Source of the DNA: Nitrosomonadales bacterium
GTDB lineage: Bacteria > Pseudomonadota > Gammaproteobacteria > Burkholderiales > Gallionellaceae
Length of the DNA: 64,000 nt
Direction: 5' to 3'
NCBI GenBank assembly: GCA_016214695.1
Contig: JACRNY010000001.1
Coordinates: forward strand, 186,001-250,000
Position 1 is the first letter of the stretch. The number at the start of each line of letters is the position of its first letter. The position numbers and the translations under genes were made by a program. The notes under the pieces were generated by a model, which had not been told where the DNA came from, did not search any database, and was given only the letters and a program-made list of their open reading frames with translations. Shown here in pieces: positions 40,513 through 43,967 of this stretch.

Positions 40513-40551
40513 TGTGGCACAACAATTCTGACTTGTACAGAACGTTCGTTC
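40513..40551 (-). promoter_or_regulatory. Possible recA promoter with GAAC-N4-GTTC box
   Basis: On the reverse strand TGTACA, 17 bases, CACAAT could be a sigma-70 promoter. Immediately upstream lies a GAAC-N4-GTTC palindrome-like box (40540-40551). No CTGT-N8-ACAG box, the usual enterobacterial LexA site, was seen in this gap. LexA binding to the GAAC box is speculative. Confidence 0.35.
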
Positions 40552-40561
40552 TCTTTTTGCT

Positions 40562-41101
40562 CTAGGCTTCTTTTGTTATTCCATTCAGCAGGTTGAGCAC
40601 TCCCTGCAGGGCGATCTGCACCGCTTTTGCGCGAATGGCATCGCGATCGCCGGAGAGATGATGACAGGCCACCTGCACCTTATCGCCGGTCGCCCAGGCG
40701 AACCAGACCATGCCGACCGGCTTCTCCGGCGTGCCGCCGGTGGGACCGGCGATGCCGCTCACCGACAAGGCCACGCTGGCACGGCTGTATTCGAACGCAC
40801 CAGCGACCATCTCGCGCACGGTCGCTTCGCTCACCGCGCCGTGCTGCTCCAGCGTCTCCGGCGAGACGCCCAGCATCTCCTCCTTGGATTCGTTCGAATA
40901 GGTGACGAAACCGCGATCGAACCAGCCAGAGCTGCCCGAGATGCGGGTGACTGCCTGCGCAACGCCCCCCCCGGTGCAGGATTCCGCCGTCACCAGCGTC
41001 ATGTCATGCGCCATGAGCGCCTCGCCGACCTGTCGCGCCAGCAGACCCGATTCCGGCACGCTGACGGCGACAGGACGTGCAACTCGTTTGGCGCGCCGCA
41101 T
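40562..41101 (-). CDS. pncC: Nicotinamide-nucleotide amidase (CinA C-terminal family)
   Basis: 179-residue protein equal to the C-terminal CinA domain. It is expected to convert NMN to nicotinic acid mononucleotide in pyridine-nucleotide salvage. VTAESCTGGGVAQAVT, GFVTYSNESKEEMLGV, VSGIAGPTGGTPEKPVG and the active-site Ser/Lys region are visible. The ATG lies two bases after the metZ stop (TGAGGATG), so metZ and pncC are probably one transcript and share the SAM-II control. recA follows. Confidence 0.92.
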   Translation of the reverse strand: MRRAKRVARPVAVSVPESGLLARQVGEALMAHDMTLVTAESCTGGGVAQAVTRISGSSGWFDRGFVTYSNESKEEMLGVSPETLEQHGAVSEATVREMVAGAFEYSRASVALSVSGIAGPTGGTPEKPVGMVWFAWATGDKVQVACHHLSGDRDAIRAKAVQIALQGVLNLLNGITKEA

Positions 41102-41103
41102 CC

Positions 41104-42270
41104 TCACAGCCCGCGCGCCAGATCGTTCTGGATATCGATGACCGCCTCCAGGCCGACCGCGACACGCAACAAGCCGTCGCTGATGCCCGCTGCCGCACGC
41201 GCTTCCGGCGTGATGCGCGCATGGGTGGTGGTCGCCGGATGGGTGATGGTGGTCTTGGTGTCGCCCAGGTTGGCGGTGATGGACAGCAGCCTGGTGTTGT
41301 CGATCACCTTCCAGGCTGCTGCCTTGCCACCCTTCACCTCGAACGCGACGATGCCGCCGCCGCTCTTCTGCTGCTTCATCGCCAGCGCATGTTGCGGATG
41401 CGATTTCAATCCGGGATAGAACACGCGCGCCACATTGGGCTGCTTTTCCAGCCATTGCGCCAATTGCAGGGCGTTGGTGCTGTGCGCATCCATGCGCAGC
41501 TTGAGCGTCTCCAGTCCTTTCAGGAACACCCAGGCATTGAATGCGCTCATGGTCGGTCCGGTGGTGCGCAGGAAACCATACACCGGCTCCATCAGCTTCT
41601 TGCTGCCCAGCACCGCGCCGCCCAGCACGCGGCCCTGCCCGTCGATGTACTTGGTGGCGGAATGGATCACGATGTCCGCGCCCAGTTCCAGCGGGCGCTG
41701 CAGGATGGGCGTGCAGAAACAGTTATCCACCGCCAGCAGGGCGCCGCAAGCTTTCGCCACGGCCGCGATGGCCGCGATGTCGGAGATCTCGGTGAGCGGA
41801 TTGGACGGCGTCTCCAGGAAGAACAACTTCGTGTTCGGGCGCACCGCCGCCTGCCACTCGGCGACATCGGTGGCGGAAACGTAAGTGGTCTCCACGCCGA
41901 ACTTCTTGAAGTAGTTGTTGAAGGTGTTGATGGTGGCGCCGAACAGACTGCGCGAGGCGACGATATGGTCGCCCGCCTTCAGCAGACCCATGCAGGTCGC
42001 CAGGATGGCGGCCATGCCGGAAGCCACAGCCACGCATTGCTCCGCGCCCTCCAGCGCGGCCAGGCGCTCTTCGAACATGGTCACGGTGGGGTTGGTGAAA
42101 CGCGCGTAGATGTTGCCCGGCTCTTCGCCGATGAAGCGCTTGGCGGCTTGCTCGGCATTGTCGAAGGTGAAGCTCGACGTCAGGAACAAAGCTTCGCTGT
42201 GCTCGTGGAACTGGCTTTGTACGCCGCCCGCGCGCACCGCCAGCGTCTCTGGTTGATAGGTATCGCTCAT
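41104..42270 (-). CDS. metZ: O-succinylhomoserine sulfhydrylase
   Basis: 388-residue Cys/Met-metabolism PLP enzyme that makes homocysteine from O-succinylhomoserine and sulfide. The PLP Lys is in HSATKYIDGQG. Other conserved blocks are YARFTNPTV, VAVASGMAAI and SLGDTKTTITHPATTTHA-like NLGDTKTTITHP. The start is the ATG before SDTYQPETLAVRAG. The leader contains a SAM-II riboswitch and an intrinsic terminator, consistent with methionine/SAM feedback. The substrate could also be O-acetylhomoserine. Confidence 0.92.
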   Translation of the reverse strand: MSDTYQPETLAVRAGGVQSQFHEHSEALFLTSSFTFDNAEQAAKRFIGEEPGNIYARFTNPTVTMFEERLAALEGAEQCVAVASGMAAILATCMGLLKAGDHIVASRSLFGATINTFNNYFKKFGVETTYVSATDVAEWQAAVRPNTKLFFLETPSNPLTEISDIAAIAAVAKACGALLAVDNCFCTPILQRPLELGADIVIHSATKYIDGQGRVLGGAVLGSKKLMEPVYGFLRTTGPTMSAFNAWVFLKGLETLKLRMDAHSTNALQLAQWLEKQPNVARVFYPGLKSHPQHALAMKQQKSGGGIVAFEVKGGKAAAWKVIDNTRLLSITANLGDTKTTITHPATTTHARITPEARAAAGISDGLLRVAVGLEAVIDIQNDLARGL

Positions 42271-42310
42271 TCTCTTCGTCCCTGCGGCCTGTCCACGCCG
42301 ACATGCCGCC

Positions 42311-42346
42311 AATAAAAAACCCGGAAAGCTTAGCGCTAAACCGGGT
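42311..42346 (-). terminator. Riboswitch-associated terminator before metZ
   Basis: On the reverse strand ACCCGG ... CCGGGT closes a hairpin with inner TTAGC/GCTAA pairing, followed by TTTTTTATT. It lies between the SAM-II element and metZ, as expected for transcriptional attenuation. Confidence 0.8.
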
Positions 42347-42353
42347 CTCCCTC

Positions 42354-42406
42354 GCTTTAGCTGAATTTGTAACGCGCCCGCAAGCTGTTCCTCAAATCGG
42401 CGCAGA
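42354..42406 (-). promoter_or_regulatory. SAM-II riboswitch (metZ leader)
   Basis: The reverse strand carries the conserved SAM-II elements in order: GCGCC (P1 5' strand), GATTTG, GCTTGCGG, GGCGCG (P1 3' strand), TTACAAAT and the pseudoknot strand GCTAAA. P1 pairs 42399-42403 with 42374-42378. SAM-II elements were described mainly in Alphaproteobacteria ahead of metA/metX/metZ genes. The downstream terminator arm contains UUUAGC, complementary to the GCUAAA strand, which suggests an antiterminator when SAM is absent. Confidence 0.85.
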
Positions 42407-42440
42407 CGGAAAGTAGCACCACCCGCGGCAAGCCGTCAAC

Positions 42441-43967
42441 TCACATCGAGCTGGCGCTCATGACGAGATCCAGCTCGAGCTGGTCCTCTTCCGGGAGCTT
42501 GTTGGCCTTGCCGCCGGCACGCGCGGCTTCGACGCGATCCAGATATTCGGCGGTGATGTCGCCGGTGATGTATTCGCCGTCGAAGCAGGAACAGTCGAAC
42601 TTGGCGATCTTCGGGTTGCACTTCTGTACCGAAGCCTTCAGGTCTTCCAGATCCTGGTAGATGATGCGGTCGGCGCTGATCTCGCGGCAGATCTCCTCAT
42701 CGGTACGCCCGGTGGCGATGAGTTCCTTGCGGCTGGGCATGTCGATGCCATAGACGTTGGGGAACTTGACGGGAGGCGCGGCGGAAGCGAAATAGACCTT
42801 GCGAGCGCCGGCATCGCGCGCCATCTGCACGATCTCGCGGCTGGTGGTGCCGCGCACGATGGAATCGTCCACCAGCAGCACGTTCTTGCCCTTGAATTCG
42901 ACTGCGATGGCGTTAAGTTTCTGGCGCACCGATTTCTTGCGCATGGCCTGTCCCGGCATGATGAAGGTACGGCCGATGTAGCGGTTCTTGACGAAGCCTT
43001 CGCGGAACGGGATGCCCAGTCGGTTGGCCAGTTGCAGCGCGCTGGGGCGGCTGGAATCGGGGATGGGGATCACCACGTCGATATCGTGATCCGGCCACAC
43101 GCGCTTGAGCTTGTCGGCCAGATACTCGCCCATATTGAGGCGCGTCTCGTATACCGAGATGCCGTCGATCACAGAATCCGGGCGCGCGAAATAGACGTAC
43201 TCGAAGATGCAGGGATTCAGCTCCGCTGCTTCCGCGCATTGCTGGCTGTGGAAGTTGCCGTCGAGATCGATGAACAGCGCCTCGCCCGGCGCGATATCGC
43301 GCAGGTATTTGAAGCCCAGCGTATCCAGCGCCACGCTCTCGGAGGCCACCAGGTATTCCACGCCCTTCTCGGTCTGGTTGCTGCCGACCATCAGCGGGCG
43401 GATGCCGTGCGTGTCGCGGAACGCCAGCAGACCGTAGCCGGCGATCATCGCCACCACGGCGTAAGCGCCGCGGCAGCGGCGGTGCACGGCAGAGACCGCG
43501 GCGAAGATGGTTTTGGGATCGAGCCGATAATGCTTGGCCTTGGCCTGCAGTTCATGCGCCAGCACGTTCAGCAGCACTTCCGAATCGGAACTGGTGTTCA
43601 CATGACGCATGTCGTCGAGGAACAGCTCCTTCTGCAGCTGCTCGGTATTGGTCAGGTTGCCGTTGTGGCCCAGCACCAGGCCGAACGGCGAGTTCACATA
43701 GAACGGCTGCGCCTCGTTATGGTCCACGGCGGAACCGGCGGTCGGATAACGCACATGGGCGATGCCCGCATTGCCCTTGAGTGCGCGCATGTTGCGGGTG
43801 CGAAACACGTCGCGCACCATGCCGTTGCCCTTGTGCAGGTGAAAGGTACTGTGTTCCAGCGTGGCGATGCCCGCGGCATCCTGCCCGCGATGCTGCAACA
43901 CTTGCAGGCCGTCATACAGCAACTGGTTGACGGGGGTTTGTGCTACGACGCCGAGAATGCCACACAT
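42441..43967 (-). CDS. purF: Amidophosphoribosyltransferase
   Basis: 508-residue first committed enzyme of purine synthesis. It transfers ammonia from glutamine to PRPP. Cys2 (MCGILGVV) is the glutaminase nucleophile after Met removal. [18 protein letters not shown] and SSDSEVLLN lie in the glutaminase domain. The PRPP loop [14 protein letters not shown] lies in the phosphoribosyltransferase domain. C-terminal cysteines ([15 protein letters not shown]) are like the Fe-S-type enzyme. cvpA lies 27 bases upstream. Confidence 0.97.

Follow-up and report, generated by a model that had tools for sequence, protein, structure and literature searches.

A SAM-II riboswitch with a putative strand-exchange antiterminator upstream of metZ in a Gallionellaceae bacterium

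The leader of metZ in a Gallionellaceae genome is, with a probability that we put at about 0.84, a SAM-II riboswitch that would serve metZ, and through read-through also pncC, as a transcriptional OFF switch. It lies in a 64,000 nt stretch of one contig, here called the window. Aptamer identity, conservation, mutually exclusive pairings and recurrence in relatives are all seen by computation, and together they suggest the following course of events. A promoter directly after purF would start the leader a few bases before helix P1. Without SAM, the nascent P2 3' strand GCUAAAGCG would pair with CGGUUUAGC once the latter has emerged; this pairing would occupy the 5' half of the terminator, and the polymerase would read on. 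Once SAM is bound, the P2 3' strand would be held in the pseudoknot P2 (GCUUGC with GCUAAAGC), leaving the terminator free to form, and transcription would end 43 nt short of the metZ start codon, at the U-run. Since the completed terminator is predicted to be the more stable form, kinetics must decide between the two outcomes. SAM binding, termination, the direction of control and its timing are what we infer from the models.

The metZ leader and its aptamer

Along the minus strand, purF is followed by the leader, metZ, pncC and recA, the last named by us from its sequence. The features of the locus, all on the minus strand, are as follows.

42410..42439: probable promoter TTGACG, 18 nt, TACTTT, spanning from just past the purF stop to a few bases short of P1 (sequence and conservation)
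42336..42413: extent of the match to Rfam SAM_alpha (SAM-II, RF00521), 34.4 bits with a cut-off of 36, E 2.9e-6, full model 1-79
42399..42403: P1 5' strand GCGCC (sequence, covariance match, leader and order alignments)
42393..42398: loop 1 motif GAUUUG (sequence, leader alignment)
42380..42385: P2 5' strand GCUUGC (sequence, leader and order alignments)
42374..42378: P1 3' strand GGCGC (sequence, leader and order alignments)
42353..42361: P2 3' strand GCUAAAGCG, pseudoknot strand and putative antiterminator 5' strand (leader alignment, growing-RNA folds)
42335..42343: putative antiterminator 3' strand CGGUUUAGC, also part of the terminator 5' half (paired to the P2 3' strand in 98.7% of cells over 47 distinct leaders; minimum free energy, MFE, of the growing RNA)
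42314..42346: predicted intrinsic terminator ACCCGG...CCGGGU with an inner AGC/GCU stem and a U-run at 42319-42314 (99.8% of cells paired; -16.6 kcal/mol)
41104..42270: metZ, O-succinylhomoserine sulfhydrylase (TIGR01325, 607.7 bits, cut-off 510)
40562..41101: pncC, nicotinamide-nucleotide amidase family, 2 nt after metZ (TIGR00199, 163.1 bits, cut-off 68.9; junction sequence)

The motifs GCGCC, GATTTG, GCTTGC, GGCGC and GCTAAA follow one another in SAM-II order from 42403 to 42314 on the minus strand and are succeeded by a hairpin and six U, just as a first-pass annotation of the sequence had described. GCTAAA occupies 42361-42356 (minus strand) within the P2 3' strand; which of its bases pair in P2 we take from the published SAM-II structure.

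SAM_alpha is the best Rfam match by E-value in 42200-42560, and the same place is recovered when the whole genome (2.66 Mb, nine contigs) is searched, with E 5.1e-6. The annotated SAM-II identity therefore holds, as the RF00521 match is significant and of full length, though its 34.4 bits do not reach the curated gathering score of 36. For that reason an Rfam search of the whole window at gathering thresholds lists tRNA alone. Does the low score set this RNA apart from SAM-II? It looks instead like a limit of the model that applies to the whole clade, because in the host's order a match at E<=1e-3 is present in 88 of 200 sampled genomes and one over the cut-off in 36 of the 200, whereas the best matches outside the order reach 50-88 bits in a phylum sample (both sets of genomes being even samples). 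The cut-off is reached by at least one SAM_alpha match in 15 of 41 genomes searched, the host's own among them through a second copy, upstream of metX (36.6 bits). This suggests that the curated cut-off would hide more than half of the match-bearing genomes in the order, as 52 of the 88 are without a match over it. The annotation's statement that SAM-II was described mainly in Alphaproteobacteria thus understated its range, but the location ahead of methionine or SAM genes is borne out, with metZ here and metX at the second copy.

Like the SAM-II RNAs already known (RF00521; metA of Agrobacterium tumefaciens, metZ of Sinorhizobium meliloti), the element combines P1 with an H-type pseudoknot P2, carries GAUUUG, UUGC and GCUAAA, precedes methionine genes and is followed by an intrinsic terminator. 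It departs from the consensus in a score just under the cut-off and in its P1 arms GCGCC/GGCGC with a short P2a extension, in contrast to the GGCC arms of alphaproteobacterial members. SAM-V (RF01826), which the annotation had named for contrast, has a similar pseudoknot and virtually the same SAM-binding mode, as excerpts of PMC6061858 describe it, but it is a translational switch, and its model has no match in 42200-42560 even at E 10; a SAM-V identity was rejected on that account.

Of 546 MetZ relatives the best 80 share 97% to 84% identity with the window protein; they are led by a groundwater Nitrosomonadales MAG (97%) and by Gallionellaceae, Sideroxyarcus and Sideroxydans MAGs (94-96%), from which we take the host to be a Gallionellaceae-like betaproteobacterium. 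Counts on these 80 therefore describe close kin. The element is upstream of metZ in 52 of the 81 loci formed by the window and these 80, one of the 52 (L040) being counted although a contig end cuts it. In an alignment of 49 metZ leaders (47 distinct), which omits L040 and two leaders with long terminator-loop inserts (L057 and L072), mean column identity is 93%, and the strands of P1 and P2 hardly vary and pair in 99.2% of cells. Variation appears across the order: in 77 aptamers 95.9% of P1/P2 cells are paired, a level reached by none of 500 shuffles, and 26 cells, all in P1, have changes on both sides. Among the 76 distinct order aptamers, P1 is paired in 97.4% of cells, with double changes in three of its pairs, and P2 in 94.5%, with its outer pair broken in 19 of the 76. 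As four of the six P2 pairs never vary, P2 shows conservation, not covariation. There is comparative support, then, for both the P1 stem and the P2 pseudoknot of SAM-II. The covariance match, conservation in relatives and P1 covariation support the identification of the metZ leader element as a SAM-II riboswitch, one that would bind SAM.

Several relatives depart from the common arrangement. In L017, L022, L025 and L085 the SAM-II element stands about 730 nt upstream of metZ; in the first of these a 206-aa open reading frame (L017:1869-2489), which would come under the same control, lies between the switch and metZ. It has no NCBIfam family at E<=1e-30, and we take it to be PaiB/FMN-binding-like. 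UUUAGC is missing from the hairpin of L026, which does have the aptamer, and in L023 one pair is broken. The inserts in L057 and L072, both upstream of metZ, measure about 55 nt and separate UUUAGC from AAGCUUUCCGGG within the terminator loop, with both arms intact.

Terminator and antiterminator pairings

Of the 51 metZ elements whose upstream DNA reaches far enough, 49 have a sequence of the form TTGAC-N16-19-TANNNT just upstream of P1. The promoter is proposed on the strength of this conservation, because a stricter consensus scan for promoters and terminators flagged neither the promoter nor the terminator of the metZ leader; the hairpin has an internal loop. Its arms are ACCCGG at 42346-42341 and CCGGGU at 42324-42319 (minus strand).

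UUUAGC, the exact complement of GCUAAA that the annotation had pointed out in the terminator 5' arm, is indeed present at 42340-42335 (minus strand), inside the 5' half of the hairpin. Over the 47 distinct leaders, GCUAAA(G)CG and CG(G)UUUAGC can pair in 98.7% of cells, compared with 12.6-50.8% when one strand is slid along the other. The three U of UUUAGC face the internal loop in the predicted terminator, yet they are kept in 47, 45 and 46 of the 47 leaders; because they are unpaired there, their conservation goes beyond what the terminator alone explains. No antiterminator pair has changed on both sides within the 47 distinct metZ leaders, and a common A-to-G change (13 of 47) suits both the antiterminator and the terminator hairpins.

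The annotation had also proposed that the leader be folded. Plain folding gives 42300-42440 no stability beyond that of its shuffles (z -0.33), and as such programs cannot show a pseudoknot, the whole-leader fold is uninformative; the alternation does appear, however, when the growing transcript is folded in 3-nt steps (MFE). From 72 to 87 nt the MFE structure consists of P1 and the antiterminator (-23.5 to -24.7 kcal/mol), and the terminator takes over at 90 and 93 nt (-27.6 and -29.7), with P1 replaced by another pairing. Barring the P2 strands from other pairs, to mimic bound SAM, preserves P1 and brings the terminator forward to 87 nt. In the full-length leader the terminator conformer is predicted to be more stable whether P2 is held or free. 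The predicted structure is that of an OFF switch: an antiterminator in competition with the aptamer uses the 5' arm of the terminator. Conservation in 49 metZ leaders, the growing-RNA folds and the order-wide tests with controls described below make the GCUAAA/UUUAGC antiterminator, as the annotation proposed it, a well-supported candidate for the pairing that would compete with the aptamer.

Recurrence in the order and alternative explanations

A second SAM-II copy is present on the same contig (L089, 36.6 bits). The protein encoded after it passes the model for MetX, homoserine O-succinyltransferase, and the next open reading frame we take to be metW from its position. As the two copies precede metZ and metX, both homoserine-to-homocysteine steps have a SAM-II leader, and a known riboswitch class is thereby extended to Gallionellaceae ahead of both. 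The metX copy has a different upstream gene and the same build of aptamer, terminator and antiterminator, and its strands GCUAAAGCG and CGCUCUAGC match at eight of nine places.

SAM-II RNAs with putative terminators were described in 2005 (PMC1273637), with a value of 10 uM reported for SAM binding by one SAM-II aptamer, and a 2007 account links them most often to terminators in alpha- and betaproteobacteria (PMC2258182). For the SAM-II of S. meliloti metZ transcription termination is predicted, and its RZ sRNA rises under high SAM (PMC9373788), all three as given in excerpts of these papers. Excerpts of Leyn et al. (2014; PMC4239095) report SAM_alpha in Rhizobiales and Rhodobacterales only and present a novel metXZ element ahead of metX or metZ in betaproteobacteria, consisting of a pseudoknot and then terminators, found once in each genome, for which the authors assume a shift from metX to metZ in some lineages. 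As described there, the metXZ element resembles the metZ-leader RNA in its place before metX or metZ in betaproteobacteria, its two-helix pseudoknot and its consistent downstream terminator; it differs in being called novel, in occurring once per genome and in the antiterminator guessed for it. Since gene, clade and build agree with the SAM-II matches found here, the metXZ element of the published excerpts is probably a SAM-II riboswitch, a second name for one RNA. Both metX and metZ copies occur in 14 of the 103 order genomes from which elements were taken, and duplication with loss therefore fits at least as well as a move from metX to metZ.

Is the antiterminator peculiar to metZ and its close kin? 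The elements collected number 169 (67 loci from genome searches, 100 further places, L089 and the window), a subset of all matches from which G017:C7 was left out, and a terminator is predicted in 159 of them. Within the order, the complementarity of each aptamer strand to the terminator 5' half was compared with shuffles of that half. The 9-nt P2 3' strand gives p<=0.05 in 62 of 134 elements and p<=0.01 in 42 of 134; the five other aptamer strands give p<=0.05 in 2-9 of 134, where 6.7 are expected by chance, the P1 5' control strand having a weak family-level signal (t 2.01). The P2 3' result persists without the host's family (p<=0.05 in 37 of 109) and when averaged by family (mean z 2.01 over 31 families, t 5.57), and a control in which the strand is permuted and not its target gives 51 of 133, with a family t of 3.86. 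TTTRGY, the complement of GCUAAA, is the commonest of its 120 permutations in the terminator 5' half (30 of 133) and ranks 33 among them downstream of the terminator. In nascent MFE folds 93 of 133 elements pair four or more of the nine P2 3' bases with the terminator half, against 29.1 expected from shuffles, and pairing exceeds a family's own shuffles in 27 of 31 families; it is absent in 40 of the 133 elements, and families f5, f10, f13 and f27 are not above their shuffles. L115 and L150 are the same place, counted twice in the 134-element strand tests; L115 was removed for the 133-element tests and for the sorting of elements into metX and metZ copies. L246, which lacks GCTAAA, is probably a false match.

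The generalization is limited to the host's order, because elements outside it give 3 of 24 with the 9-nt strand (24 of 25 elements, omitting one that the segment search did not parse); 12 nt gives 3 of 24 and 16 nt 6 of 21, and nascent MFE pairing is found in 14 of 25, against 7.8. In L148, from a different order of the same class, a changed strand is accompanied by a matching change (GCUAAACAG with CUGUUUAGC). The evidence leans towards a wider picture in which metXZ is SAM-II and the SAM-II RNAs of the order have one platform: the terminator 5' half would imitate the P2 5' strand and compete for the P2 3' strand, and this direct strand-exchange kinetic switch would have been kept in most of the 31 sampled families while the rest of the terminator diverged. 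Such a picture offers a testable switching mechanism for many terminator-carrying SAM-II RNAs.

Could the hairpin simply be the terminator of purF, with a real SAM-II aptamer beside it, an incidental UUUAGC, and control exerted through RNA stability or translation? On the same strand, purF ends only about 95 nt short of the hairpin, and excerpts of PMC9373788 report that the terminator of the S. meliloti metA SAM-II is predicted to be unaffected by SAM binding. A promoter-like sequence stands upstream of P1 in nearly all metZ elements, however, the metX copy repeats the whole build behind a different gene, and the complementarity recurs across the families of the order, clear for the P2 3' strand only. 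A purF terminator thus appears improbable. The antiterminator might also be formed as Leyn et al. guessed for metXZ; in the published excerpts available, no strands other than those of their speculation (PMC4239095, section 10) are put forward as the antiterminator of such an RNA. With the regions named in those excerpts mapped by us onto the aptamer strands, p<=0.05 is obtained for the P2 5' strand in 2 and for the P1 3' strand in 5 of the 134 elements (6.7 expected), as against the 62 for P2 3', and we give that arrangement very little weight.

A drift of the RNA to another ligand, or to none, is equally hard to credit. The score is under the Rfam cut-off, and SAM-I variants sensing spermidine, as described in excerpts of PMC10853860, attest to a ligand switch in another SAM class. 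Against this, GAUUUG, UUGC and GCUAAA are kept, metZ and the metX of the sister copy are known kinds of SAM-II targets, and the SAM-II RNAs of the order score low as a group.

Gene neighbourhood and other SAM-related RNAs

The annotation placed pncC two bases after metZ, which is correct (metZ TGA, GG, pncC ATG), and co-transcription of the two genes is likely. The link it drew between NAD salvage and SAM fares less well. pncC follows metZ within 150 nt in 79 of the 80 relatives, in 50 of 51 with the element and also in 29 of 29 without a detected switch, and because adjacency is kept in the latter it reflects operon structure and is not evidence for an NAD-SAM connection. A link of the switch to NAD through pncC is weakly supported and would be passive at most. 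The pncC-recA neighbourhood is common in other bacteria, and the position of pncC before recA may be older than the switch. Between pncC and recA, upstream of recA, is the site GAACGAACGTTC of the form GAACN4GTTC (40540-40551, minus strand); 70 of the 77 relatives whose recA start could be read have it. It resembles the Gram-positive type of LexA box more than the E. coli type.

Of the elements collected from the order, 35 are classed as neither metX nor metZ. SAM-II is found ahead of metH at L107, L116, L164, L181, L184 and L202 (metH is the best NCBIfam match in six of six proteins picked, which are partial and under the full-length cut-off) and ahead of metK at L097 and L148 (two of two picked are over the NCBIfam cut-off). 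At L211 it precedes a threonine ammonia-lyase gene.

Of further interest is a second SAM-II-like pseudoknot RNA in the host's order, situated outside the window, of the form CGCC-GAUUUAAnnnACAACUUGC-GGGGCG...CCGCUAAAGCGUCG. Its strict pattern is found in 31 of 200 order genomes, compared with one for a reversed-pattern control. The loci are L249-L260 and L262-L268, with tandem cases such as L170:326-382 and L197:1327-1383. It lies ahead of a MetK-like open reading frame in 12 of 12 listed loci by eye (10 of 12 by pattern); the other 18 of 30 examined copies have SAM-II or GCTAAAG just upstream and look tandem. P1 of this RNA covaries and P2 is invariant. The RNA was not found in the metK leader of the host genome, and Rfam assigns no family to it in the six loci scanned closely (L170, L249, L251, L255, L258 and L260); it is possibly an unlisted relative of SAM-V or SAM-II. 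SAH riboswitches (RF01057) at L251:61-144 (minus strand, 55.4 bits) and L255:64-148 (minus strand, 52.3 bits) follow metK, about 1.3 kb downstream of the metK element on the same strand, and SAM- and SAH-type RNAs thus share one neighbourhood.
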